The notes below the pieces were generated by a model. The model searched no databases. It saw only the letters and a program-made list of their open reading frames with translations, and had not been told where the DNA came from. The translations under genes and the position numbers were made by a program. DNA of 64,000 bases from Clytia hemisphaerica (taxonomy: Eukaryota; Cnidaria; Hydrozoa; Leptothecata; Clytiidae): NCBI GenBank assembly GCA_902728285.1, contig CACVBU010000046.1, positions 1,047,997 through 1,111,996 of the forward strand. The letters run 5' to 3'. This document shows, piece by piece, positions 33,822 to 57,289 of the stretch (positions are counted from its first letter, which is position 1; each line of letters begins with the position of its first letter).

Positions 33822-36800
33822 CTAATATTTTTTTATCTCCTCCACATATTCAGCTGATCCTTTAACAGGAAGCTTGAGTGTTGCAAAGATGTAGAGCGTC
33901 TCTATGTTTTTTGGAGAAAGATGATTTCTCCTTGGGGAGCAAACCATTTGAAGAAATGAATAACTTCGCTCTAGTGGGGAAGTGTTTGATTGTGTTGCCA
34001 ACAAAATCATGATGAGGGCACTGAAATGTGGAAACATTATTCCAGTGTCCCCTGATAATAACATATCACTGAGCACTTCCATCTGCTCAGTATGGCTTTT
34101 GCCTTCTGTCATCTTCTTCATCATCCATCTTCTTGACAAGAGAGGCCACAAACCTCTTATTTTCTCGACTAATTCTTCTTTGCTACACCCAATCACTTGT
34201 GGATAATGCAGGTTGATTCTAAAAATAACAGACATTAAATTCAAATGGTAATAGACAATGGATAGATGTTAGTTTCAATTTCTACATTCTGGGAAGTTCC
34301 TTGATCATTGGTAAAAATTGGCAAAAACCTGAACAAATCATAATCATCTGGCACAAACACAATAATTACTTACTTGCAAACTTGCCATTCAGCTTTAGTG
34401 GCTTTCTTGTCGTCAACTGATTTTAAGATCTGATGTTTCCTGGTGATTGTGAAGGATTTAATTAATGGCATCAGCTTTTCAATTTGATTGTTTATCTGAT
34501 GAGAGAAGATTACCATTTTCGAATGATTTTTAACAATATTCATTATATTTTTTTATAAAATCATAAAACCAACATAACTTTTTTGTAAAAGATACAGAAG
34601 GTCTGAGGTCTAATCCTGACCAGGCATAGTAAAATGTTGTCTCGTCAACTTGACTTCGGATGTTTTCTTCAATGTTTTGGAGGATTTCTTTCTTTATATT
34701 TTCAAGTTTTGATTTCAAATTTTCTTTGCGTTGGTCTTTAGATACGTTTTTCGTTGGCTTGTGAGAATTTGTCAGTCTAAGTGAATGGAGATTGCCATTG
34801 AGTCCCTAAAAATTCAAAATTTTTATAAGTGAATTAACAAGTTTGCACAGGTGGGATTAATATTTCGAAACTTTATGTTGAGAATTTTCAGTTTTCAACA
34901 TTCTTACAGTAATAGATTTTTATTACCTCTTTAAAATCTACATTTCCATTGGAGTCAATATCTATTGATTGGAGAAATTGGTCAGCATTGGGTGTTTTCA
35001 AATTACGAACATTTTTTTTTTCTTTTTTTTTTCGTTTCTCTCTAATCACCAAAAATATGGTATAATATATAACTCTTGTTTGAAAAAATAATTTCGTTTT
35101 TATTTACTTTTTTTTATAGACTAACTGTCAAACGAGTTGGAGTGACTTCGCTTCCCTGGGGGGGGGGGGGGGGCGGGCTCATAGATCCGCTACAGGGCCT
35201 ATCCGTATGGAAGTATGATATGCCCTAGGGAAAGCCAGGTCATCTCGCTTACCCGTATAAAATAAAAAGGGAATCACCTAGGATGAGCCCGCTGATATGT
35301 GTCACCTAACAAAGAAACTGTGATTCCCTGACATTTGTGGCAGTAGTTTGAGCTGTTTCATAAGTCATACTGACCAAGATAGCAGATTTGTCAATTGATC
35401 TGAGATATTTGTTGTAAAATCCACGTCAGTCATCAGCTGCAAAATAAATAAGAAAAATTTTGGTTTAGTGGAGCTAAATCAAACTTTAATATTTAAAAGA
35501 AACGTTGGTGCTAGCTATCAATTGTGGGGTAATCAATTACACTGTACTGATGTTATATTATGGTGAATGTGTTAGTGAAATATGAAGGAATAACATGATA
35601 GGGTTGATTTCTAATAATTTGGTGGTCGACTTGTTATTGCAGCATCATCCAACTTTGGCAAGTGTTTGTAGATTTCTTGAAATGCATTATTTTCTACATT
35701 TATGTATTCAGCCATCATGTCGAATAGAGAATCAACCAAGTCGTAAGCATTGACACCTCCTTTAAGATGATTCAACTTGTAAGGTACAAGAACAGGTTTG
35801 TACTTCTCTGTATCCACACCTAGTGATTAAAAGATGTATGGAAACATACAGTAATAACTTGAGATTAAAATTTTAGTGGCTTAATGTGGATTTGAAAAGC
35901 ACTGCATGAAAAACTGGGATTACCCAATTCTGCACTGTACGTAAATTTGATTTATTTTGGCATTTCCCAGTAGAAATATCATTTCTTGGAAATATGGTAT
36001 TTCTTTTGTAGTAAATATAAAATAAACACATGTTCATTCATATTTTCACATGCCGAAATTTCACATTCAGACATTTCCTCAAAATAAATACCATATTTAC
36101 TACAAAAGTAAACGCGACAGAAATTTCACATTCAGACGTTTTCTGACCTTTCTCAAACGGATTTCTACAGATTTAAGAAAACCGAAATCCCAGTTTTTCA
36201 TGCAGTGAACGAGTATTTGTACGGATTTCTAAATGAGGAACTTGTCTGACAGACCATAAATCCACAAAAACAAAAAAAGAATAAATTTTTCATACCATTG
36301 AGATATATTCCATTGAATTCCATGCTCAATTTTGTGATGCCATCGTGCATGAAGCCCCAGTATGGTGACCGCTTGATTATCCCATAACTTGGGTTTTTGT
36401 CTTTCTGGTATGCCTCCAAAAGGCAACCTTCCCAGTCGTGGATATTATTTTTGTCTAACGAACATTTGGGTGGTTGGAGAAGATGGACCTCAGACTTTTC
36501 AGGAAATTGCTGTTGCAACCCAGCTTTTTGGATCAAGTAGTGGTTGTAAATACCTCTGTAGGAGGTGTTGTAAATCTCAATTGTGATAGATTCTGAAATG
36601 CACTTATTTAAGCTATTGTGGACTATAGATAGTGCAACCCTTTAGCTATTTTGTCCATTTCAGACGTGGACTTTTGACTGGCTCTCAATTTACTGTCAAT
36701 AAAAGTGGAAATGTTCATATATTTATATTTCTTATGGTACTTCCCAATCAGTGTTGTTTGATTTTCTGAGGATGAAGTGGCTTCCAGTGGTTTTGGCTTT

Positions 36801-43771: not shown

Positions 43772-44355
43772 GAAGCAACTTTCTCCAGAAGCAATTTTTT
43801 TGATTAATTTGAGCAAGATTTATTTTCTTCCTGAGCCGAAGCAACTTTCTCCCGAAGCAAATTTTTTAATCAATTTCAGCAAGATTTCTTTTCTTCCTGA
43901 GCCGAAGCAACTTTCTCCCGAAGCAAATTTTTTAATCAATTTCAGCAAGATTTCTTTTCTTCCTGAGCCGAAGCAACTTTCTCCCGAAGCAAATTTTTTA
44001 ATCAATTTGCTGAGCAAGATTTCTTTTCTTCCTGAGCCGAAGCAACTTTCTCCCGAAGCAAATTTTTTAATCAATTTGAGCAAGATTTCTTTTCTTCCTG
44101 AGCCGAAGCAACTTTCTCCCGAAGCAAATTTTTTAATCAATTTGAGCAAGATTTCTTTTCTTCCTGAGCTGAAGCAACTTTCTCCCGAAGCAATTTTTTG
44201 ACCGATTTGAGCAAGATTTCTTTTCTTCCTGAGCCGAAGCAACTTTCTCCCGAAGCAAATTTTTTAATCAATTTGAGCAAGATTTCTTTTCTTCCTGAGC
44301 CGAAGCAACTTTCTCCCGAAGCAAATTTTTAAATCAATTTGAGCAAGATTTTTCT
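43772..44355. repeat. 66-bp minisatellite, nine units
   Basis: Units begin GAAGCAACTTTCTCCCGAAG at 43,772, 43,838, 43,904, 43,970, 44,039, 44,105, 44,171, 44,236 and 44,302; lengths are 66 except one of 69 and one of 65. In six units both strands are open (plus: KQLSPEANFLINFSKISFLP per unit). It lies 180 bp before the first putative exon of the large gene. I treat it as a non-coding tandem array, though translation cannot be excluded. Confidence 0.9.
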
Positions 44356-44533
44356 TTCTTTTAAATTCAATTCAATAATATAAAATGACTAGATAATTAC
44401 TAAACACTCTCTCTGAAACGCAGTAATTATTTTAAAATGGACCAAGTAAATTTCTATTGATTGACCTCTCGAAACTTTGTAACGCCTAAAGTAACGTATA
44501 ACAGTAACAGGGTAATATTTTTTCCATTAGGTT

Positions 44534-46560
44534 ATGACAACGTCAATTCTTGACCCGGCTACGTGTGGCTTTATGAAAGTAGTGACATTCACTCTGCTCA
44601 AGAATTCAACTGTGGATAATGACATATACGAAAGGTCTGAAAATTATATATTATAAAATTTTCTTTTTATTCTTTTATCTGGATGTTTTTATATCTAAGT
44701 TTGCTCTGAATCTTTCTGTAATATTATCGTTCAGTAGGACCCGTAGGACCAGTGTAATGTCCGTAGTGTTAATTTATGTTAAATTCCGTTTAATTGTGAA
44801 ACTCTTAGAATTAATGTTTCGCATGGTTTATTCCAGGTTTACCGTGATATTCAAATCAATCAGAGGAGTAGGAGATCTTGATTATGGTATATTTTCGAGA
44901 AACTTTGTCAGGATCAAGGATCAGATTCACAAAAATGTTTGCAAGAAAGATCTTGAAGTTAAAGCAAAAGTTTTAGAAGTATTCAGCGAGGAAAACTGGT
45001 CATCTATAAGTGAATCTGACCAAGAATATCATTCTGTGTTCGATTGCTTTGGGTGTGTAACTAATGACGAGTTTCGCCTAGTTTTGGTACATTTGGTCAA
45101 CAAGAAAGACACTGCAGCAATGAAAAAGGCTGAGCGTATCGGAATGTTTCGAGCGGTGGAAGTTTTGGAAAAAGCTAAACAGAAAAAGAAGAAGCAAAAA
45201 GTGAAGAAGAAAATATCCAAAGAAGAAAGAGAGAAAATTATAAAGGAGGCAAAAGAAGATATTGAAAGACAGGATGCTGAAACGAGTGTTATAAGGTAGT
45301 TAGGTCTTGTCAGTTGTTTGGCAGTTAGACAGACATTTCTCTTTTCTGTTGTACCAAAATCTAGAGGAAATTCCAACACGGCTAGAAAAAATCTTTTGAG
45401 AAAGTTGAAAGTTGACCAATTAGCGATCTTAATACCTATATTTAAAAATATTATTTTAGGAGTTTAGGTGGCGTCACGTCAAGACGTAGGCGAAACGAAC
45501 TGCGAAAATTAAAATCGATGGAGCCAATTGAAAAAGCCATTGAAAGAACGAAACAGGCAAAGAAGAAAATTGAAAACGGAGAAAAAAAAACCTCGTAATC
45601 CTGTTGGAAATTTGGATAATTACACTTGGGATCGCGAAAACTGTATTGCTGAGGTTTGTACGGCTAACTTCTTTTGTTGTATGTTAGAATGAATATACCA
45701 AGTTACTTTTTGAATACATTATCGGTATAAAATTAGTAGGCAATAGTTTTTAGCCGACGAATATTTCTTACTAATACCAAATGCCTTTAGATTAATACGA
45801 TCATTTTTTCGTTTGAAACGAAATACTTTGGATACCAAATTTCGGGTTTATGTACTATTTTATGACAAAACTGAAGAAAGGTTAACCTTTGATGCAGGGT
45901 TGTTTATGGTTCGTTCTAGGTCAATTCTTTACCCGACGATACACCTCCTAACTACGAAGAGCTTGCTCGCGTTCACAATTTGGAACATAAAAATGGTATG
46001 TCTCAAATTATTCATGATTGTGTTCACGCCGTAATGTTTAACGGAAGCATTCCAGTTTATCAGAAATTCACTTGTTTACACTTTGCTAGCGTAGTCCGGA
46101 GGGACGCATATCCCGAAGAGAAGCTCATATAAGCTGGACGTAGCCTAAGAAACTACATTATTCAGATTACATACAGCTAACTAATAGAAAATTTTTTGAA
46201 AATTTCTTTGAAGGCAATGTTCCAGGTAACGGTGGCCAAAAGATAAAAGCACTCCTCAAGAAAAATGAAGTAAATTTGGAGAGATTTGAGACTGGATCAA
46301 AGAGAGAAATTATCCGACGTGCAAAGCGAAGGTACGTGTCGTTTTATGTAGATCATTTGTGTTTGGCGGGGACTTCGTTTAACAGAACATGAATTTTTGG
46401 TCACTCCTTTGAATTTAAGGTCCTTCCTAAAAGCATGATACAACATCCACTATTACTTTCTGCCTTGTTTTTAGAACTTTAGAGACTAACGTGTCAGTGC
46501 CAATGAAATTGAAATGACAGATAAAAAGCTAATGGAGGAGTTGAAAAATGAGGTAGAGAA
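44534..46560 (+). pseudogene. N-terminal exons of the large repeated-family gene
   Basis: Candidate first exon at 44,534 (MTTSILDPATCGFMKVVTFT to a donor at about 44,635). Better exons: 44,837-45,295 (FVRIKDQIHKN, FGCVTNDEFRLVLVHLVNKK, then a Lys/Glu helix), 45,460-45,653 (LGGVTSRRRRNELRKLKSME, then after a shift in an A-run near 45,590 PVGNLDNYTWDRENCIAE), 45,920-45,995 (VNSLPDDTPPNYEELARVHN), 46,214-46,331 (NVPGNGGQKIKALLKKNEVN) and 46,475-46,560 (TLETNVSVP, a shift near 46,500, EMTDKKLMEELKNEVEK). Junction phases agree. The donor at 46,561 joins in phase to the exon at 57,290. NYEELAR.HN...NG....NGGQ is, from memory, a signature of an uncharacterised cnidarian multicopy family. The basic N-terminus hints at nucleic-acid binding. 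Confidence 0.6.
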
Positions 46561-46571
46561 GGTATCTTTTT

Positions 46572-46622
46572 TGCGGAACGTGCGTTTGAGCGCGCGCAGC
46601 GCGCTCAAACGCGCGTTCCGCA
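46572..46622. other. 24-bp GC-rich stem with 3-nt loop
   Basis: 46,572-46,595 pairs with 46,599-46,622 around GCA; all but one of 24 positions are Watson-Crick (one G-T). The stem contains GCGTTTGAGCGCGC. It begins 11 bp after the splice donor of the large gene and about 390 bp before the Helitron reading frame. Confidence 0.9.
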
Positions 46623-47012
46623 TCCTTTGGCAAGATCTGCGTACGCGGGGCGTAAATTTGTATATGTTCGAGAAATGCTACCGATTTGGCTCACGAAAAA
46701 ACACCGAGCAAAGTAGACTTTTCTTTATTTTATAAAATAAAAGAGTTTTTAAAATTATATCGAGTTTGACTATCCAATCAAGTGCGAGTTTTTGTGCTGT
46801 AAATTGTTTCATTTTTTCCCGCCGGTCCAAATTGTTAGATCCAACCCTCCAGTTTGTTATTTGTATACCGTCACAGACAAATCACAATTTTTTGAATGTT
46901 GAAAAGTATTTCAAGAAGAAAAGTGTATGCAGAAGTGTAACCATTTGAACATCACAAGATTTAGATAATTATTATTATTTTTGGCTCAAAGATATATACA
47001 TATAATTTTGAA
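46623..47012. other. leader of the Helitron reading frame
   Basis: AT-rich except the first 40 bp. It presumably holds the Helitron 5' end and promoter; neither can be pinned from sequence alone. Confidence 0.3.
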
Positions 47013-49877
47013 ATGTTTATCCCCAGCCTTAATGTTGATAATATTAGAAACTTAATTGAGAGTGCCAGAAGAACTGTTGTTGGGAATTTTAGAAAACTTC
47101 CAAGAACAGTCTGGCCCAGGTATAGTTGTGTTCCCCAGATTTTAAGAACTGCTCGTAACCATGGCTTAAATGTTTTTTGTGTGAGTGAAACCCCCGGGGA
47201 TGGTAATTGCTTTTATCACGCCATTGTAGAACAACTTAACGATCGTACAGATTTTGGTGATGTTTCAGCCTTAAGGTTACAGTATCCAAACCATCTTATC
47301 TTACGCCAGGCAGTCGTCAATTTTGTGCGGGATCAAAGTCGTCTAACTGTAGAGGAGTCTCCATACATTGTTGGATATAGAACTTTCTTTGAACAGGGGG
47401 CAATTGATATTCGCAGGGCTGAAGGGTTTTCTTGGGAGCAGCTTTTAACCCAGCAGTTGTGTGATACTGTGTACACCACAGAGGTCTTTATCAATGCTGC
47501 AGCTATCTTGCTTGGTAGAAATATATGCATCAATTCTGAAAGCTGCAGCGTAAATAATCCCCTAAAAGTTATGAGTTGTTTCCGTGATTCTCCTCATCTA
47601 GAATTTCATGTAGATATGCCGGTCAGCTCTTACTTTCTTTTGGCCGGAATTAACAATAATCATTTCCAATCATTATTACCTGGTGATGGGGGGATTTTAG
47701 CCAATTTTAACCAGCAAGAAACTGTTGACTTCTCGATTGAAAATGTAGAGATAATAAAAAAACGAGAGTCTGAAGGTATGAAAGATCAAACAGCTCCTCC
47801 CAGGAAGAAAAACAAAATTCAAAAACCTCCTCTAAAAAAGGTGTCTGTTGACCCTGAAATAGAAATACAGGCAAAGTGTACCCTTTATGGTTTAAAATAT
47901 ATTGAGCCTTCTGCTGAAGAGTCTGTTTCAGACAAGCGTAAAAGAAGAAAATCTCTTAGATGTAAGATAACAAGTGCAAAGAAAAAAAGCAATGTAGAAG
48001 AAGAACTTAAATTATTATGTGCTCGTGATGGTATCGCATACATTGCACCTTCTGATAATGAAACTGTTCGCGAGCGAAGAAATCGTAGAAATAGAATGAA
48101 TCGTGTTATGAGAGAAAAATCTATTCATAATGCTGAAGAAAGGTCTGACAGTAACAACAGTTGTCTACATTCAAATCCTAGGGTTGTTGAAGCAGCAGAA
48201 TCTGTTCATAATGCTGAAGAAAGACCTCTCAGTAATAACAGTTGTTTACATTCTAATCCTAGGGTAGTTGAAGCAGCGAGCATTTTTGAGGAAGGGGAGT
48301 TAAAACACAACATCGATCGATGTAAAATTTGTAATGAAGTTAGACCTGTTTTTCATGAAACTGTTCATGTTGAGCCTGAATTGAACAACAATGATTTGTT
48401 TTCCCCAGCTTCATGGTCAGTAGGGGAGGATGGTAAGTGCATTAGATGTCGCCAAGAAGAAAAAAATAATCGTAAAAGAAAAAATCCACCTGCCGCCCCC
48501 AAATTTTCTGGTATTTTTTCCATGCACGGGAATGATGATAGTAGTAGTCATGGAGATGGGACATTACATAATAATATGCATTTTGAAGAAATTCCCCCAT
48601 ACCTGAAAAATCTGAGTATTCTGGAAACGGCCATGATTTCAAAAATCAACATAATAACTAATATTACCATCCTTAAATACGGCATGCTGAAAGGACGCGG
48701 CCATTCTATTGCAGTTCCACATGACATGAAAATTGCAAAGACTTTGCCAAGCCTCCCCCAAGAAGTAGGAATTATATTGGTTCGAAAGAAAGGCGAGAAT
48801 GGGGAAGTTTTGAAAGACTTTATTGTCAAACGAGATAATGTTGAACAGGCTTTGAAAGGGCTCGTCTTTGGTTTTCCACATGGTGGAATGGGTACTGCCT
48901 TTCCTAGTTCTAAAGTTTATGATGGACCAGATCATATTAACACACCTTTAAAAGGCAGGTTTTTTCTATGGCTTCCCAACCCTTTTTATTTTGATGTTAT
49001 AATTGACCATGTAAGATTAGAGAATTTGCCTAATGATGGCCGACAAATTTGTCCAGGTGTTCCAAATCTTGAATACAAAACAAAGGTTCCCAACTTGAAT
49101 AAGAATTTATCTGAAGGTCAACCAGGATCCTCAGATTTGGAAAATACACATTCAGGTGTTGTCTCACCACTTGAACCTAATGATGTTGATAAGAATCTTG
49201 AGAAACTTTTACAGAAAATTGTTGATGATGAAGAGACTGTACAAGATCTTGTACGCCTTCAAAGAGTTGGGGTGGCAGAAATAACAAGTGAAAAACGTGA
49301 ACTTGTGCCTGAAAGGAAAACATGTGGTTTTTTTGCAATGGCTTTTCCAACAATATTTATCAATGGTTCAGCAGACATCACCATTCCTCAACTAACAACC
49401 CCTGATTATCAAGAGTGGGTGGATCATATTTACCACTGCGGTGACAACCGTGTGAGCTCCCATCCAACACTTCGATTTTTTCTTTTAAATCTTGGCCTAA
49501 GGGAAAGGGCTTTAAACCAAGGTTCATTTATTGTTGCACAACAACTTCATGACGCACATCTTTCTGTTGAAGAATTACGTGAAAATTTAGAGAATAATGA
49601 TACTTCTGTACCAAGAAAATTGATAAGTGTTGGTGCTAAGTTTGCTAATAGTGATCCATATTGGCGAGACAGGAAAATTGAACTTGACAACCTTGCTTTG
49701 TTTAGAAAGATTGGATATGGGGACCTTCCAGCCTACTTTGACACAAACTCTATGGCTGAATACCACTGGGATCCCCTTAAGCAATTGCTTGCCAAGTATG
49801 AATCTGTTGTTAAAGGGGTACCCGTCGAAACTGTCCTCGAGTGCATTAATAATGATTTTCATACCATCGTAAATTAG
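47013..49877 (+). CDS. Helitron protein part 1: OTU protease, DUF6570-like, Helitron N-domain
   Basis: 954 codons from ATG to an early stop. Residues about 56-225 form an OTU cysteine-protease domain: the loop ETPGDGNCFYHAIVEQL has the Asp and nucleophile Cys, and NNNHFQSLLPG near residue 215 supplies the His. OTU enzymes remove ubiquitin; in Helitron proteins the role is unknown. Residues 285-375 hold two related basic segments (EIQAKCTLYGLKYIEPSAEE and EEELKLLCARDGIAYIAPSD), followed by a 27-residue tandem duplication. From about 437 CKICNEV starts a zinc-knuckle/DUF6570-type region (IPPYLKNLSILETAMISKIN, VFGFPHGGMG). From about 790 the Helitron N-domain begins (PAYFDTNSMAEYHWDPLKQL). The stop comes from a one-base frame change near 49,865; the domain continues in the next frame. 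The ATG is the first in frame but could be internal to a spliced product. Confidence 0.85.
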   Translation: MFIPSLNVDNIRNLIESARRTVVGNFRKLPRTVWPRYSCVPQILRTARNHGLNVFCVSETPGDGNCFYHAIVEQLNDRTDFGDVSALRLQYPNHLILRQAVVNFVRDQSRLTVEESPYIVGYRTFFEQGAIDIRRAEGFSWEQLLTQQLCDTVYTTEVFINAAAILLGRNICINSESCSVNNPLKVMSCFRDSPHLEFHVDMPVSSYFLLAGINNNHFQSLLPGDGGILANFNQQETVDFSIENVEIIKKRESEGMKDQTAPPRKKNKIQKPPLKKVSVDPEIEIQAKCTLYGLKYIEPSAEESVSDKRKRRKSLRCKITSAKKKSNVEEELKLLCARDGIAYIAPSDNETVRERRNRRNRMNRVMREKSIHNAEERSDSNNSCLHSNPRVVEAAESVHNAEERPLSNNSCLHSNPRVVEAASIFEEGELKHNIDRCKICNEVRPVFHETVHVEPELNNNDLFSPASWSVGEDGKCIRCRQEEKNNRKRKNPPAAPKFSGIFSMHGNDDSSSHGDGTLHNNMHFEEIPPYLKNLSILETAMISKINIITNITILKYGMLKGRGHSIAVPHDMKIAKTLPSLPQEVGIILVRKKGENGEVLKDFIVKRDNVEQALKGLVFGFPHGGMGTAFPSSKVYDGPDHINTPLKGRFFLWLPNPFYFDVIIDHVRLENLPNDGRQICPGVPNLEYKTKVPNLNKNLSEGQPGSSDLENTHSGVVSPLEPNDVDKNLEKLLQKIVDDEETVQDLVRLQRVGVAEITSEKRELVPERKTCGFFAMAFPTIFINGSADITIPQLTTPDYQEWVDHIYHCGDNRVSSHPTLRFFLLNLGLRERALNQGSFIVAQQLHDAHLSVEELRENLENNDTSVPRKLISVGAKFANSDPYWRDRKIELDNLALFRKIGYGDLPAYFDTNSMAEYHWDPLKQLLAKYESVVKGVPVETVLECINNDFHTIVN
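48120..48282 (+). repeat. 81-bp tandem duplication inside the Helitron gene
   Basis: Two adjacent in-frame 81-bp copies encode NAEERSDSNNSCLHSNPRVV and NAEERPLSNNSCLHSNPRVV contexts. The divergence is mostly synonymous, suggesting the protein was under selection after the duplication. Confidence 0.85.
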
Positions 49878-49879
49878 TT

Positions 49880-50962
49880 TTGTCGAATCTCCATATTGTC
49901 ACCAAATACTTTGAGAGGAGGACCCTTAATTATTACAAAACTGTCGGGAAAGAACTATTTCAAACATCTGACATGTGGATTAGATATGAGTTTGCAAAAG
50001 GTCGTGGTGAGATTCATAGTCACGCTATTGTTTTTAGTGAATCGCACGCAAAGAAAATAGAAAATGCAATGGCTCTGATTACCGATGATGGAAAAGGTAA
50101 TGTAAATACATCTGATGCAGCATTTGAACTTCATAGTTTACTTCAGACTGATTTACAAAATACAGAAGATTTTCACTCTCCTAATTTTGTATCTATGCAC
50201 CCTGCAGGTGGCCATGAAGAAATTGACGAGAATGGCAAAAGGGTATGGATCCCCAACAAATCTGAATGGCCCAAACCTGATGGAGATTATGAACCTCCAG
50301 ATTATAATCCTTTGTCAGAAAAACTCTCTGACCACTCAAGCCAAGAATCCATGAGAGATTTTCATATTGCTTTGACAAATAAGGTGGGCTTGCATAAGTG
50401 TAATAATACTTGCTTAAATGTGAAGTCTGATGGTGCTAAAACAAAATATTGTCGTTTCCATTTTGGTAAGTTTGATATCGAAAATAGAACTTCAGAAGGA
50501 AAAGAAACTCATCCTTTCCATTCACTAATAACACCAGGAGAACATCCACGTTTTGAAGGCAACAGAGATCATTCTTTTCTGATATCTCATGTCAAAACAC
50601 GACTGTTAACATGGTTAGCCAACTCAGACACGCAAGCCATCATTGATCAAGACTTAATGGCTCTGTTGAGATACATCACTCAGTATGCTTGCAAGGGTGC
50701 CAAATCTACAGACGATTTCATTCGTCTATATAAACATTTATTAGATGTTAATAGTGATGTTGCATCTGTAAGAAGTATTGCCCAACAGTTAATTTTAAAA
50801 ATTATTGGATTGATTGATATGCCAGCAGCTGCTGTTGATTTTCTGAATTGTGGGGGTCGTTTGTTTCATTGCACTCGACAGTTCAGGAGAATTGGTCTTA
50901 GTGGTTTTCGTGCAATAAATTCAAGTTTTCCGATGGGGATGCAACAAAAGAAACACCTCTAG
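49880..50962 (+). CDS. Helitron protein part 2: HUH Rep nuclease domain
   Basis: Continuation of part 1 in the -1 frame; coding similarity starts a few codons before the ATG (KLVLSNLHIV). Residues 33-52 read WIRYEFAKGRGEIHSHAIVF, whose IHSHA is the metal-binding HUH motif. Residues about 260-270, LLRYITQYACKGAKS, carry the two tyrosines (YITQY) and lysine typical of Helitron Rep, which nick and join DNA through a 5'-phosphotyrosine. HKCNNTCL and KYCRFHF between them form the usual Cys/His cluster. The C-terminal part (MPAAAVDFLNCGGRLFHCTR) leads to the linker. It ends after a frame change near 50,930; true coding resumes as DGDATKETPLEKFLSEKRRT. Not an independent gene. Confidence 0.85.
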   Translation: MSNLHIVTKYFERRTLNYYKTVGKELFQTSDMWIRYEFAKGRGEIHSHAIVFSESHAKKIENAMALITDDGKGNVNTSDAAFELHSLLQTDLQNTEDFHSPNFVSMHPAGGHEEIDENGKRVWIPNKSEWPKPDGDYEPPDYNPLSEKLSDHSSQESMRDFHIALTNKVGLHKCNNTCLNVKSDGAKTKYCRFHFGKFDIENRTSEGKETHPFHSLITPGEHPRFEGNRDHSFLISHVKTRLLTWLANSDTQAIIDQDLMALLRYITQYACKGAKSTDDFIRLYKHLLDVNSDVASVRSIAQQLILKIIGLIDMPAAAVDFLNCGGRLFHCTRQFRRIGLSGFRAINSSFPMGMQQKKHL

Positions 50963-50970
50963 AAAAGTTT

Positions 50971-52863
50971 TTGAGTGAAAAACGTCGAACACGTTATCCT
51001 AATATGACTTTGTATAATTGGGCTCAAATTTGCGTTTGCACCCCTAAGTGTGCCAAAAACCATGTTCCTGTTTTTACTGGGATTCCGACTCTTCCCATAT
51101 GGCCACTAGAAGAGGATTATTGTAAGGGTCAATTAATGATTCACTCGTTGGGAACATGGGAAAATGTAAATGACCTTAAGAACGGGAAAGACTCATTTTT
51201 AGAATCATTCATGGAGTTTTTAGAAAGTGACCTATGTCCTATGATTGTGAAAGAACTTGTCAAAAAAGCAAAATCAGAGCATGACAAAAAGCTAGAAAGG
51301 GATCGTCAAAGAGCAAAAAAGAGGAAAAACCTTGATGTTGATGATAGCTCTATTGACCACGAATCTGGATCTGAAGATGAGTTTGAGAATGAAATCAGAA
51401 ATGAACATGAATTTTTAAGATACTTGGCTGAAAATAGACCCCAAGATTTTGAAGATTTGAATGCTTTTAGAGATCTGCCTGATGGTGGAGAAGGTTTTGA
51501 TTGGCATCAGTATGCAATTGAATCTTTTGGAGGTGGTTGGCCTGATAATGCTTCAGATTGGCTAGAAAACATCTCAAAGGTGGCAGCTGCACAGCAACAG
51601 GCTCAAAATCAGAATTGTGATTTGCCACCAAATATTGATTTATTGAAGGCTAATGCTCTTCAAAGAGTAATAGCTATTAACATTCTTAATATTATGTCTG
51701 TTGTGAATAATGAACACCAAAATAAAGTGCGTCTCTTAGTGCAGGGGACGGCTGGAAGTGGTAAAACATTTACAATTGTTGCCTTGACCTATTTGTCGCG
51801 AAGAATTTGCAATCGAAACAATGCTGTAATGAATTTAGCACCTACTGGAGCAGCATCTATTCTCCTACCCTTAGGACGAACTGTTCACTCAACAACAAGC
51901 ATCCCAAGAGTGAAGAAAAAAGAATCCAAAACATTGCAGTTAACTGATAAGCCATTGAATAGCATATCTCTCACTGCCTTACGTGAACTAACTGGTAGCA
52001 CTCTGGAAGGTAATTCTATGAAATTGATGACCTTGAATTTAGATGAAAGAGGTATGTATAGTCATCGTATGTTAGCATGGTGTAGTCAACGTTTTAAGGA
52101 GGCAACATGTGATTTTTTCAACAACTTTGGTGCAATACCAACTGTCAATTTTTTTGGAGATTTAGGGCAGCTAGGTCCAGTTGATTCTCATGATTTGCAT
52201 GTTGAGCCATTATCCTCAGACGCCCCAGATAAGCTTGCCGGTTATGGAATCTATCGTACATTTTCACATTGTATTCTGTTAAATGAAACTATGCGACAAG
52301 GCCCAGATCAGTTGTCTTTTTTGGAAATGTTGCTGAGAATCAGAGAGGGTAAACTCAATTTGAATGACTGGAAGACAATAAATTCAAGATATGAAGGTGA
52401 GCTTCCTGAAAGTGCCAAAGAGGGATTTAGATCAGACACATGTTTGACCGTTATGGAAACGTGGCAAGAGGTAAATGTTGAGAACCACAACAAACTAGCT
52501 GATTTGGGGATCCCTGTTGCTACTATACCAAGCAAAGGAAAAGGACGTCATCACACTCAATCTGTTAATCAGATGGGTCAAATTCCTGCAACCTCTCACA
52601 TTGCTGTTGGAAGTCGTGTGCTTTTGACTAAAAATCAGCTCAGCTTAACACCTCTTGGATTGAATAATGGAGCAATTGGGAAAGTGATTGCAATATTATA
52701 TGCTGAGGGAGAAGCACCTCCATCATTTCCAGAAGCAGTTGTTGTAGATTTCCAAGATACAAAGGCCCAAGCTGGCTTCCAGAACACCCAACATGGGTTC
52801 CTATACCTGTCAATGAAGCACGTTGTGATACTAACTGTTGCTCTAGAAGGGGGTTGCCCTTGA
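50971..52863 (+). CDS. Helitron protein part 3: PIF1-type helicase
   Basis: 630 codons. A Rep-helicase linker with CVCTPKCAKNHVPVFTGIPT is followed by a charged segment. Walker A is QGTAGSGKT at residues 258-266. Motif Ia is NLAPTGAAS. The Walker-B region is unusual: LNLDERGMYSHRML, where DE.SM is typical. Motif III is FFGDLGQLGPV, and motif IV region LNETMRQGPDQ. These are SF1B/PIF1 hallmarks; the enzyme unwinds DNA 5'-3' during rolling-circle transposition. The frame ends after a third one-base change near 52,795; the correct frame reads VNEARCDTNCCSRRGLPLMP into part 4. The ATG at 50,971 is internal to the full protein. Confidence 0.88.
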   Translation: MSEKRRTRYPNMTLYNWAQICVCTPKCAKNHVPVFTGIPTLPIWPLEEDYCKGQLMIHSLGTWENVNDLKNGKDSFLESFMEFLESDLCPMIVKELVKKAKSEHDKKLERDRQRAKKRKNLDVDDSSIDHESGSEDEFENEIRNEHEFLRYLAENRPQDFEDLNAFRDLPDGGEGFDWHQYAIESFGGGWPDNASDWLENISKVAAAQQQAQNQNCDLPPNIDLLKANALQRVIAINILNIMSVVNNEHQNKVRLLVQGTAGSGKTFTIVALTYLSRRICNRNNAVMNLAPTGAASILLPLGRTVHSTTSIPRVKKKESKTLQLTDKPLNSISLTALRELTGSTLEGNSMKLMTLNLDERGMYSHRMLAWCSQRFKEATCDFFNNFGAIPTVNFFGDLGQLGPVDSHDLHVEPLSSDAPDKLAGYGIYRTFSHCILLNETMRQGPDQLSFLEMLLRIREGKLNLNDWKTINSRYEGELPESAKEGFRSDTCLTVMETWQEVNVENHNKLADLGIPVATIPSKGKGRHHTQSVNQMGQIPATSHIAVGSRVLLTKNQLSLTPLGLNNGAIGKVIAILYAEGEAPPSFPEAVVVDFQDTKAQAGFQNTQHGFLYLSMKHVVILTVALEGGCP

Positions 52864-53249
52864 TGCCTGGTTATTGTATACCTATATCAAAAAGCCAAGG
52901 TATGACAATAGGTCCTAATGAGCCATGTACTCATATTCGGATAAAGTTAAATAAAGAGATTTTTATGGAGAAGCTTAACCTTGGCATAACTTATACAGCC
53001 CTCAGTAGGGCATCTAAACTAGAAAATGTTGCTTTGGTCGAAAAAGTGCCATATGATAGGCTAAATTATATCAATAATCATCCATGGATGCCACGAAGAA
53101 GGGAAGAAGAAGAAAGATTGAAAATTTTGAGTGACGAGACTCTTCAAACATTTGGCCATTACAGCGATTTGAATACCTACAGAGAACTATTATGTGGTGA
53201 ATTTGATCGCTTTGTCAATGATGGTCTAACATGTTTTCAAGACCATTGA
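52854..53249 (+). CDS. Helitron protein part 4: helicase C-terminus
   Basis: 131 codons that complete the helicase: GYCIPISKSQGMTIGPNEPC is motif V (SKSQG), and YTALSRASKLENVALVEKV is motif VI (ALSRA). The stop at 53,247-53,249 is the natural end. The ATG is internal. Together with parts 1-3 this gives a product of roughly 2,080 residues, normal for a Helitron with an OTU domain. Confidence 0.85.
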   Translation: MPLMPGYCIPISKSQGMTIGPNEPCTHIRIKLNKEIFMEKLNLGITYTALSRASKLENVALVEKVPYDRLNYINNHPWMPRRREEEERLKILSDETLQTFGHYSDLNTYRELLCGEFDRFVNDGLTCFQDH

Positions 53250-53730
53250 TCACATTGCCTCAACATCGTTTCAGGGCATCGTAATGCTTTTTTTATGCGA
53301 TTGTTAAATTTTCTGCTTAGCATAGAAAGGCGTTTTCAATTACATGTTTTATAAATAAGACTGATAAAACCTTAAAAAATTAAGACAACAATATTATAAC
53401 TTAATTTACTCTGCATTGAAACAGACCTTTTGACAATGCATGACATTTTCAAATGTTACTGTCATGAATGGAACAGCAGCTCAAAGATAGAATTCTGAGT
53501 ATCTCAATCAAGGAACTATTAAAACAATTAAACATGGGAAAATGAAGGCTCTAAATCAACTCAAACAAACGGTAATTCGGCAGTATTTTGAAGGATAAGA
53601 ATCATCTAAGCTCAATTTTTCTTCTTTTGGAAAGGAACTGTTAAAACATGTAATTGAATTTGTCTCACTATCATTAGTTTAAATCAAGGCTGTTCTGTCT
53701 GTCAAGCTGCAAATGACTTTAAGTTGATGA
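53250..53730. other. 3' flank of the Helitron frame
   Basis: Non-coding, AT-rich; no CTRR-plus-hairpin Helitron end could be chosen with confidence. Confidence 0.4.
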
Positions 53731-53916
53731 TTGATGGATGTTGATAGTTGTTTCCATCAAAGGTGGATGTTGATAGTTGTTTCCACCCTCTGGTGACATG
53801 TTGATAGTTGTTTGTCACATACAGAGATAATACCTATGAATGTTGATAGCTGTTTTCATAGTGGTATCGCTAGTCTATACCACCCTGAAACATGTTGATA
53901 GTTGTTTGTTTCAGGG
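53731..53916. other. array of five stem-loops with one shared loop and five different stems
   Basis: The core TGTTGATAGTTGTT (one T-to-C in copy 4) occurs at 53,739, 53,768, 53,799, 53,841 and 53,893. Each copy is bracketed by a perfect inverted pair: TTGATGGA/TCCATCAA, GGTGGA/TCCACC, GTGACA/TGTCAC, CTATGAA/TTCATAG and CCCTGAAACA/TGTTTCAGGG. Loop-closing pairs are always A-T. Spacing between cores is irregular (29, 31, 42, 52 bp), so this is not a simple tandem repeat. Stem change with preserved pairing shows selection for folded single-stranded DNA or RNA. It lies 482 bp after the Helitron stop, on the same strand. Function unknown; candidates are a Rep recognition or terminal region of the Helitron, or a 3'-UTR protein-binding array. 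Confidence 0.95.
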
Positions 53917-54596
53917 GTACATCAGCTTATCCACTCTTGTCCCTTTGATCCAGTAAGTGTGGAAAACTCAGTGGGGTGGGGCTCGAAATATCTAAGTTTG
54001 ATTTAGACGCAATAATCTTTCTAGAAGTGAACAAGTGTTCAATAGAATATTTTCATCTAAGTTGATCCCACCAAGGTTTGAGAGATAAATTTGAAACACA
54101 CGTAGCTTCAATAAAATATCCTGGCATTTTCTTTGGTAGCATCTAAAAGCGAACCAATTTTGTCCCTCTTTAATGCGAATTGTCTACCTGGGTACATAAA
54201 TATGTTTTGTGGGGTGAATTTCATCACAAAGATCGTCACAGCAGGAGGTTTCTTACTGGATCATAGAGACAGGGTATCCAAGTCAAAAACAGCTAAACAG
54301 TCTTGTACCCTAAAAATCGTTTCGTTGTAGTTATATTTTAATTTTAGGGTGGGATGCAAATCCTATGGCTTCACCTTCACGTGGTGCATCCTGTTCCACA
54401 TTTTCAAAGCATTCAAATTTATGCATTGTAAATGTCAACTAAAAGCCAAGGTTATCCAAAGGGAGATAAAGACTTTCTTAGAAAACCTTTAGCTTTCAAA
54501 TCTTTCGCCTTTCGTGCCGATGATTATTTTATCTCCTTTTGGATATGATGAATCGGGTTTGTACCGTATTGTCAGTAAATCTTTTTTCTTTTTAGT
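53917..54596. other. non-coding stretch
   Basis: Nothing firmly recognised. A loose inverted pair GGATGCA/TGCATCC occurs at about 54,353 and 54,385. Confidence 0.35.
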
Positions 54597-55020
54597 GTAC
54601 AAGGTTAAAGAAAAAACAATGAATAACGACATTGTGGACATGGTGGAAAATGATTTAAATGATTCGTTTTCGGCTGAACTGGCAGCCGAAGAAGAAAGGG
54701 AGAGTGGTAAAAAGTCTGAAAGAGAGAAAAATCAACAGAAAAATAGTGATAAAATTATTAATTTTAAACAGTACAAGAAAATGAGAAGAATTAATGGCGG
54801 CCCAAGATCGTACTCTTCATTCAAGTTTTGGAGTAATAACGGCGGTGAAGATATGGAGGGGTTCCTGGATTCATGGAAGGATAAGGATAAGAGGAAGTCA
54901 GAGAGAAGAGAACTGGAAAGAAAGACTAAAAGGATAGAAAGAACCAAACAAGTGACTTTGCAGAAAGTTTTTAATGTTCATCTTTATGGTGAAAACTCTG
55001 TAGGTGTTCATTTGTTATGA
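54597..55020 (+). CDS. Lys/Glu-rich protein or exon, unrecognised
   Basis: A strong acceptor (CTTTTTTCTTTTTAG) precedes an open frame with ATG at 54,619 and stop at 55,018-55,020, about 133 codons. It starts acidic (DIVDMVENDLNDSFSAELAA), has FKQYKKMRRINGGPRSYSSF and a Glu/Lys/Arg helix (DKRKSERRELERKTKRIERT) likely to be coiled coil. It lies inside the large gene's intron on the same strand, after the Helitron. It could be an accessory Helitron frame, a separate small gene or a captured exon. No function offered. Confidence 0.4.
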
Positions 55021-57289
55021 CAAACATTAAATTAAAATACATCGTTGTTTTAGATTGGCACTCTGTCACAGTTTTTCCCATAAATTCACCTTAAATTTAA
55101 ATTATTCAATCAATAAATTTAATTAATTAATTTAATTTGAACTCAGTATTTTGAACTTAGTATTTTGATGTTATGAAAACATTTTTTGACAGAATTCTCC
55201 ATTTGAGCTGCGGTAATGTAATTAAAGTTCGAATTGTTTGAGTAAGCAAAAGTTTTTTTGAAATTGTCGTGTTCAGAAGAGGAGGTTTATGAGATTTTAA
55301 TATAATTATAGTTCAGGTCCTGTGATGGTTTAATCATCTCAAGTTTTCTTGTTAGCTTAGCATAACTTTGAAGATATCTTTAATACAGTTTCTAACTAAG
55401 ACACTTTAGTTAATTTGAATCAGCATAGAATTTATTAATTTAAACCTGAAAATGTATAGTTTATCGTTATTAAAGTTTATTGTTATTATATGCGAATGTA
55501 ATTTGCCTATTGTTGAATTGAGGATTTGTAAACTTTTATACAAAAATTGTATTAATTATTTCCAAAATGTTAGCATCTTTTCCTTCCTCATTTTGGTGAA
55601 CTTCGCTCTTACGCAACCCATTTTGAATTAGATTCGGTCGTTCAATTTGTCTTTTGTCTTTTAGAACACTTCAGGTATAATAGAATGACAAACAAAATTG
55701 ACCATTATAACATGCATCAAGTCAACGTGTTCCAACAAAGTCACTTTAGAACCTATTTAAAAGTAAGTCCATTTCAATTCATATTTAGCTTTGTAATACA
55801 ATTCTCTATCACTGACAAACTTGCATATAAAAAATGATTATTTTAAACGTCTTCATTGCTGACTTAAATGAAAGAGGTGTTAGCCAAAATTTGGATTTTA
55901 GATTTTAGATTAATACATGCGAAAATTAATCCACTTAAAAGGTATTTGTTTTCCATTACAGAGAACGGCAGTTTGAGCCTGATTGAATGCTCCGACAAGT
56001 ATCTTTCTTCCTTTTCGTGCAACACAAACTAATTTAATGGTGGTAAGTTAACATTTTTCAAATAGATGTTATTTGTCAAATAACAATAGGTTATTACAGA
56101 CTGATTCTAAATAATACAACAAAAGACTGCCAAAATGTGCTCTTCAGACTGTCTAGGAGAAACAATTTTTTCCCAATTCTGTGATATTTTAATAAGACTC
56201 TTAAAATTAATATTTTGTTCTCTCTCTTCTCATGTAGAGTGTAGGTCGTGCAATTGTTCGAAAACGATACGGAATTTCCATGCATCAATAATGAAATGTA
56301 GTTTTGTTACCTATTTTTTGTTTGTAATATAAATGTATTATTGTATACAAATTAAAGAAACATAACAATCATTAAAATAATCACTTTAAATTGTGCTCAT
56401 GAAAATTTCTATATTTTTGAAGGGACAAAATCGTTACATTTTTAAAATTTACAACTAAATAAATACAAGCCTGGTCTAGATGACTAGGGAATCGTTTTCT
56501 GTTGACATTTAAAACACTTGATAATTTTCGTACGACGGTTAAACTTAGGCTGAATGTATGATAAGAGGCTAAGATTTCGCTTCGTCCCACCTACGAGTTG
56601 TTATTTCCGAGTCCTTTAAGTGACTGAGCTTTTTGACCCGATCTATAGAAGACATAGACAGTGTAGAGATGTACACAATATTGATGTAATGGGATCATTG
56701 TTGGTTACTATTTTCCATTGAGGAGTTAGCCCCCTTAAAGGTCATCAAGATGCCTGAATTCTTTGCATTGGCATCCTCTGAAACCCCCAGGGGCACTCAA
56801 GGCTAATGACCTACTGACGTGCGGCCCTTTTGAGGGTCCTTTTTCTAAACTTCCCAAAGCGTAGAGTGGAAACGAGGAAAAGGGGGAAAAAGTGCACTTT
56901 AAAGTCGGTATTTTGCCTTAAAGTGGTCAAAAATTTAGCCGTAATGCACCGATTTTTCGCCCAATTATTCTTTTCATTGTAAGGGTCTGATTTTAAAGGC
57001 CTAATTTTGGGTCACACAATAGACCTTTCCCTTTGTTTTGATATGAGTGCCCCGATCCAAAACCAAGAATTTTGACACCATTACCAGTCCCCTCAAAAGT
57101 CGATGATAGGTGATTTTCTTGTGGGGTCACTGATAATTTTTTTATGATTCTTCGCTTTGCGAAAACAGAACGCTCTTTCCGCAAGCCCTTTTATGTTGAT
57201 TGAATATTTTTCATTTATTGTATTTCGATATTTTAATCAGATATTATTTATCAAACTCAAACTATTAATTTCGTAATATTAACTTTTAG
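55021..57289. other. remaining intron sequence
   Basis: 2.3 kb with no supportable gene. Near 55,900 the words GCGAAAATTAATCCACTTAA resemble the repeat words at 43,500. 56,760-57,130 is richer in GC with AGGGGCACTC and GAGTGCCCC in opposite orientation, possibly a small inverted-repeat element. Confidence 0.35.

Follow-up and report, generated by a model that had tools for sequence, protein, structure and literature searches.

Repeated hairpins that carry a common motif act as redundant protein docking sites in the tandem stem-loops of roX and in the A-repeat of Xist, viral transport elements hold a short motif unpaired in several stem-loops of one RNA, and integron attC sites keep their structure while their sequence is free. 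RNA packaging signals likewise repeat a short unpaired motif across several stem-loops of one RNA (PMC9065705). Here, we describe, using genome searches, covariation tests and fold prediction, an array of five hairpins with one common loop in a Helitron2-like transposon of the hydrozoan Clytia hemisphaerica, which probably belongs to an RNA structure in the leader of a small reading frame, ORF2. The array differs from roX and the Xist A-repeat in that the common part is a 13-14-nt loop on free stems, at a transposon site beside an ORF; from viral transport and packaging signals in being compact and enclosed by two helices, P1 and P2, with no virion or export factor known; and from attC sites in its conserved loop, its several copies per element and the lack of evidence for recombination. 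Repeated motif-bearing hairpins as docking sites are thus a known principle, whereas the form and the Helitron setting appear to be new; among the open-access papers on Helitrons and Helentrons that were listed, none describes such an RNA in a Helitron by its title and abstract opening.

The window, meaning the whole 64,000-nt stretch of DNA that was analysed, contains the following transposon:

46568..57201, plus strand: Helitron2-like element, about 10.6 kb, 5' TTTTTGCGGAACG.., 3' ..CTTTTATGTTGAT, borders defined to within 1-2 bases
46965..53249, plus strand: OTU, DUF6570 and PIF1-helicase (RepHel) frames from the ORF list (Pfam PF02338, PF20209, PF05970)
53937..54271, no strand assigned: MITE-like insertion with inverted ends of about 20 bp (repeat I10), splitting the RNA region in the subfamily to which the window copy belongs

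A copy on contig C370 (L016, L049) is 98-99% identical up to the borders 46568 and 57201 and has different flanks, and more copies share the same ends. The element frames combine the PIF1 helicase (PF05970) with DUF6570, the Rep domain match being weak (REP_ORF2-G2P, E 0.09, below the cut-off), and the RepHel coding region of the window copy is distributed over four overlapping frames. The termini carry asymmetric inverted repeats, TTGCGGAACG / CGTTCCGCAA, with hairpins near both ends: the 5' end, TTTTTGCGGAACG, bears 24-nt palindromic arms (a near-perfect palindrome at 46572-46622), and the 3' subterminal CGTTCCGCAA lies about 17 nt before the end in the copies compared, with one mismatch in the window copy. 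At its 3' end the element reads ATGTTGA|T, and the flanks are compatible with T|T insertion. Neither an endonuclease family after the helicase, which would mark a Helentron, nor an integrase family was found in the window frames scanned. Helitron2 ends of this kind are described in the portions of PMC5148889 and PMC4067079 used for comparison, and the PIF1 helicase, the OTU domain, the asymmetric inverted repeats and the end hairpins liken the element to Helitron2 and Helentrons (PMC5148889, PMC4067079). It differs from Helentrons in the endonuclease, missing from the frames scanned, and from both groups in its RNA array and ORF2, which go unmentioned in the compared portions of these descriptions (PMC5148889, PMC4067079).

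Other repeats occur in the window. A 16-bp minisatellite of about 96 copies with strong GC skew lies at its start (398-1903), a 66-bp tandem repeat of about nine copies at 43772-44360 is open in both directions, and a C-terminal piece of a hAT transposase gene on the minus strand (33822-34265) has a Pfam E of 0.0004, just below the cut-off. The stretch 46291-46308 is complementary to the left end of the MITE-like insertion at 53937-54271.

The array itself consists of five hairpins with the core loop and one without it:

53731..53760, plus strand: hp1, stem of 8 bp, core loop
53762..53787, plus strand: hp2, stem of 6 bp, core loop
53788..53826, plus strand: hp3, stem of 6 bp with a CTCTG/CAGAG extension, core loop
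53834..53861, plus strand: hp4, stem of 7 bp, core loop
53862..53882, plus strand: hp6, coreless hairpin TGGTAT/ATACCA, one pair being GC/AU in relatives
53883..53916, plus strand: hp5, stem of 10 bp, core loop

An earlier note, made from the letters alone, had reported five hairpins with one 14-nt loop and perfect stems of 6-10 bp, and a recount over 53731-53916 bears this out: the stems of hp1 to hp5 measure 8, 6, 6, 7 and 10 bp, all Watson-Crick, each with the A-T closing pair that the note had seen. The loop, said there to be almost unchanged, is identical in four of the five hairpins, and hp4 has a single T to C change at loop position 10. The stems do differ in sequence, but "completely" was too strong, as hp1 and hp2 have TGGA/TCCA in common and hp3 and hp5 the loop-adjacent ACA/TGT. 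The cores, which span 53739-53906, start at 53739, 53768, 53799, 53841 and 53893, and this spacing (29, 31, 42 and 52) is irregular as stated; it does not exclude a tandem origin, however, since TRF finds a 29-nt unit in 2.6 copies at 53735-53813 and one genomic type of the array is a plain tandem. Among random window sites, a stem of at least 6 bp across a 14-nt gap has a frequency of 0.00072 (about 0.07%). The whole window holds seven core matches with at most two mismatches, five of them inside the array, and none of 100 shuffles gave seven. Rfam returned no match across the window, none at E 1 on L073-L075, and on the copy L020 twelve matches that all lie far under the gathering cut-off (best E 0.07); a search of viral contigs gave no match.

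Outer helices enclose the array, which is one domain of a structured region at 53685-54545, between the RepHel gene and ORF2. P1 and P2 surround the hairpins and are followed by P3, P4, P5, a conserved linker, P6 and ORF2:

53685..53694, plus strand: P1 5' strand, CAAGGCTGTT, outermost helix
53721..53729, plus strand: P2 5' strand, AAGTTGATG, helix enclosing the array
53920..53928, plus strand: P2 3' strand, CATCAGCTT, helix enclosing the array
54296..54305, plus strand: P1 3' strand, AACAGTCTTG, pairing with the P1 5' strand
54308..54349, plus strand: P3 helix, CCCTAAAA / TTTTAGGG
54352..54391, plus strand: P4 helix, GGATGCA / TGCATCC, with a strongly conserved loop AATCCTATGGCTT..CCTTCACGTGG and two compensated pairs relative to other copies
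54398..54435, plus strand: P5 helix, with both-side changes in four pairs
54437..54451, plus strand: linker AACTAAAAGCCAAGG, strongly conserved
54453..54545, plus strand: P6 helix, TATCCAAAGGGAGATAAA / TTTATCTCCTTTTGGATA, similar pairs being seen by eye, uncounted, in other copies
54619..55020, plus strand: ORF2, a charged protein of 133 aa

The two P1 strands lie at an insertion-long distance in 3 of the 22 copies in which both were located. By eye, the P4 loop could pair with the linker, so that a pseudoknot is conceivable. The 434-nt region of L020, folded as RNA, reaches -145.5 kcal/mol (z -7.7 against shuffles) on the sense strand and -118.8 kcal/mol (z -6.3) on the complement, and the fold of L011 has a z of -5.2. 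The window copy, over 261 nt as RNA, is modestly better than shuffles (z -2.65), and its antisense strand as DNA has a z of -4.8.

Is the array confined to this element? The earlier note had proposed a search of the host genome, and in 417 Mb on 951 contigs, array DNA was found at about 36 loci among the matches listed (56 rows, the best 40 of 52 candidates), so that the array is no single occurrence; the tally merges the C142 rows and drops second rows per locus and the fragments C839:40416, C207:460841, C793:511224 and C662:750754. Outside arrays, the core behaves differently: 11 of 20 fetched loci have a core without an array, and the Watson-Crick stem around it is at most 1 bp in all 11. 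The arrays fall into four types. In types 1a and 1b, which comprise the window copy and its relatives, hp4 is CTATGAA/TTCATAG and hp5 is CCCTGAAACA/TGTTTCAGGG, CCCTAAAACA/TGTTTTAGGG or a variant with G-U pairing. In types 2 and 3, hp4 is CACTGTGAA/TTCACAGTG, hp5 is TTGTAACA/TGTTRCAA and hp6 is missing. Type 4 (L073, L077 and L079) is built of 4, 3 and 3 tandem units of roughly 120-130 nt each, every unit comprising hairpins similar to hp4, hp6 and hp5 and having a 13-nt loop that is, or nearly is, TGTTGATARTGTT, and these arrays contain 8, 6 and 6 core sites, respectively. The number of core hairpins thus varies (5, 6 or 8) while the loop is nearly constant. Among ten other Helitron loci (L063-L072), no loop repeats of a comparable kind were recognised, only isolated stemless core-like sites. 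L076 has the conserved P4 block and no core array within the 600 bases examined, and may represent another form of the RNA region.

The type 3 RepHel has 38-55% protein identity to that of the window over the L009 pieces (49% for the C-terminal piece), and the hp1-hp4 DNA of C6, a lineage 3 copy, is 93% identical to the window's. The type 2 RepHel is near the window's, the C-terminal piece being 86-98% identical in most copies, and its 3' part resembles type 3. Judged by these sequences, type 2 (lineage 2) is probably recombinant, because a window-like RepHel is joined to a type 3-like 3' part, and module exchange may therefore explain in part how well the array is conserved compared with RepHel. 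L011, L013, L017 and L024 have this composition and are probable recombinant Helitrons; L011, L013 and L024 carry the window-type terminus.

The stems were compared between copies in alignments that include A1, with 14 of 30 array copies (types 1b, 2 and 3); A2, which omits the recombinant L024; and A4, which covers P4 and P5 in 11 of 15 distinct copies (L010, L014, L018 and L028 left out). Over the whole fold in A1, 93.9% of 1155 cells are paired, compared with 40-47% when the partners are slid. In A1, 42 cells are changed on both sides, compared with 18.3 +/- 3.0 for shuffles (reached in 0 of 500), and its score is 0.094 against 0.053 +/- 0.004 (0 of 500). The ten pairs with double changes were matched by 30 of 500 shuffles, and the 19 further pair types lie below the shuffle value of 25.3. 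Compensated changes between copies, which span types 1a to 3, occur in hp4, hp5, hp6, P2, P4 and P5; the P2 columns, drawn from a single alignment, are only 72-80% paired, and hp1-hp3 are nearly invariant, their pairing being mostly beyond the reach of covariation. P4 and P5 show six double-change pairs in the 11 copies (1 of 500 shuffles), with a score of 0.205 against 0.105 +/- 0.016.

Pairing between different stems was assessed as well. Ten distinct-stem hairpins of our own choosing have all 60 of 60 cells paired and a score of 1.015 against 0.256 +/- 0.073, although their double changes at five of six pairs were matched by 127 of 500 shuffles. When arms were swapped among 22 distinct stems, the own partner paired in 98 of 110 cells, and 5000 swaps gave a mean of 60.3 and a maximum of 84. 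At 33 fetched loci, 130 of 162 core sites have six of six Watson-Crick pairs, and 151 do so when G-T is included; this count covers clusters of at least three sites with at most two mismatches and a TG start, more decayed hairpins being uncounted. Covariation stands above both the shuffled and the slid controls, as expected of a conserved structured RNA. The copies are related and the shuffles consequently lenient, so that the slid controls and the wholesale changes in hp4, P2 and P5 weigh most. Together with the arm swaps, the compensated changes support the suggestion of the earlier note that a folded single strand is under selection.

Which strand folds? In distinct stems, G-T pairs (wobbles on the sense strand) outnumber A-C pairs by 9 to 2 (p = 0.065), and wobbles are fixed within subfamilies in hp5, hp6 and P2; by sequence, the window copy also has them in P1 and P2. 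Fixed G-T pairs are better suited to RNA than to DNA. The wobbles and the fold energies favour the sense strand as the folded one, and the stable G-U pairs favour RNA over ssDNA.

The array follows RepHel, as the earlier note had it and had proposed to check: 32 of the 36 array loci are preceded by a same-strand match to the RepHel C-terminus, at a distance of 119-732 bp for 30 of them, in a tally for which 43 of 150 RepHel rows were typed (the best 150 of 249 candidates). In ten of ten other RepHel loci examined (four of an 86-89% class and six of a 45-56% class, the 35-38% class left out), the next 1.35 kb or so downstream is free of the array. ORF2 lies 177-1161 bp downstream of P4 at 32 of 40 P4 loci, the other 8 having no listed ORF2 (best 40 of 92 candidates). 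Conversely, 36 of 45 ORF2 rows have P4 or the array upstream and nine have neither among the matches listed, an overlapping C234 row having been left out of the 46. ORF2 identity between lineages is 34-50%, and a Pfam scan found no family above the cut-off in it. At seven loci, ORF2 occurs without a nearby RepHel among the best 150 of 249 candidates (C142, C504, C229, C370:963k, C611:51k, C499 and C248:48k), and three of these (C142, C370 and C611) have the array; at C142, the one locus of the seven checked directly, tblastn of the 1.55 kb upstream gave no RepHel match. In type 4, ORF2 follows the array and no RepHel is among the matches listed. ORF2 at loci without RepHel and the ten RepHel loci without an array mean that the RNA region associates with ORF2 at least as closely as with RepHel. 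Comparison of the copies shows that the fold is selected, that the sense strand is preferred and that the region is linked to both RepHel and ORF2.

We regard it as reasonably probable that the array forms the multi-loop domain within a large cis-acting RNA, part of the sense transcript in the ORF2 leader, whose loops bind one protein and thereby control the ORF2-bearing RNA. P1 and P2 would hold the five hairpins, or in one type the 6 or 8 that carry the core, so as to display the UGUUGAUAGUUGUU-like loop, and P3-P6 would continue the RNA structure up to ORF2. The loops would be repeated sites for one protein, either a host single-strand RNA-binding protein or a product of the element, and multivalent binding would probably control how the RNA that bears ORF2 is exported, stabilised or translated. 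We infer that the region is transcribed and acts as RNA rather than ssDNA, that a protein docks on it, and that ORF2 is affected; pairing stems of variable sequence, a near-constant loop, hairpins that change in number and a compact platform would all be expected of a multivalent site for a single-strand-binding protein. The docking array that the earlier note had offered as one option fits better than its Rep site, although the region looks like the leader of ORF2 and not solely like the RepHel 3' UTR in which the note had placed it. Each loop contains two UGU sites, UGU-N7-UGU (N6 in type 4). Spaced UGU sites, whether in single strands or across hairpins, are bound by CELF1, with the best spacing at x = 2, y = 4 (PMC3737555), and CELF/Bruno proteins are for this reason a lead, not a finding, as the loop ligand. 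The array resembles CELF1 GU-rich elements in the UGU sites in single strands held near by hairpins and differs in the N7 (N6 in type 4), taken by sequence alone, against x = 2, y = 4 for CELF1 (PMC3737555).

The array might instead be an ssDNA structure for the HUH Rep, with an origin, nick site or terminator in its loops that serves rolling-circle transposition, and the earlier note had put forward such a recognition, replication or end structure. The sense strand would then be the mobilised strand, the 3' terminus ATGTTGA|T equals the closing A plus the first half of the loop, and the antisense strand as DNA folds better than its shuffles. The motif ATGTTGAT at the 3' end prompted the idea that the loop is the terminal nick site, which we dropped because the loop does not follow the terminus between lineages: three lineage 3 copies keep the loops and end in GGCTTGT instead of ATGTTGA. 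The ten arrayless RepHel loci among those examined, the type 4 arrays with ORF2 and no listed RepHel, and the fixed G-T pairs also speak against a Rep site, which we judge distinctly improbable. Non-autonomous copies were considered as a test in cis and set aside; some of the loci found through the 3' end (L053-L062) are elements whose long interiors are unrelated, and for this reason no conclusion is drawn from the 3'-end matches (best 40 of 394 candidates). In G000:C760:2782745-2810990, the same Helitron 3' end occurs six times in one direction at a spacing of 3.6-7 kb, a possible tandem series. The linkage of the RNA region with ORF2 across lineages, whether or not a RepHel match is listed, would also suit an independent non-coding RNA that is the RNP partner of the ORF2 protein and not an mRNA leader; no promoter, processing site or RNP partner was identified, however, the distance from P4 to ORF2 varies from 177 to 1161 bp, and we consider this reading unlikely.

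We think it quite unlikely that the region is an IRES-like or ribosome-directed structure that allows ORF2 to be translated from the transcript that also encodes RepHel, in which case the loops would have a structural role and bind no ligand. The array does lie upstream of ORF2, and the strongly conserved P4 loop and linker could pair mutually, but an IRES does not usually vary in its count of loop repeats, and type 4 has ORF2 without RepHel among the upstream matches listed. It is very improbable that no selection acts and that hairpins arising by mutation, through template switching or serial insertion of the core, were merely spread by transposition. Cores do recombine mutually, as L024 illustrates, where an array copy (L024:4963-5094) lacks the segment that separates two cores, the outcome that recombination between identical loops would give, and type 4 is a tandem; the compensated changes in hp4, hp5, hp6, P2, P4 and P5 and the stemless single cores argue against it. 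The two other options of the earlier note, an attC-like logic and serial insertion into palindromes, gained no support. Returning to the cis-acting leader RNA, a further step would be a transposon-borne RNP module, in which an RNA with a variable number of near-identical ligand loops and a dedicated ORF2 protein move jointly between Helitron lineages, also without an identifiable RepHel; we hold this to be possible but doubtful.

In conclusion, Helitrons have been described by their proteins and their DNA ends, and a large conserved RNA structure in coding copies would add an RNA layer. The near-identical loop on free stems isolates the putative ligand-binding motif, and the ligand can therefore be sought with one short RNA. 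The finding also raises the question of what role the linked ORF2 protein has, and the RNP module, if true, would be an RNA-based accessory system of rolling-circle transposons.
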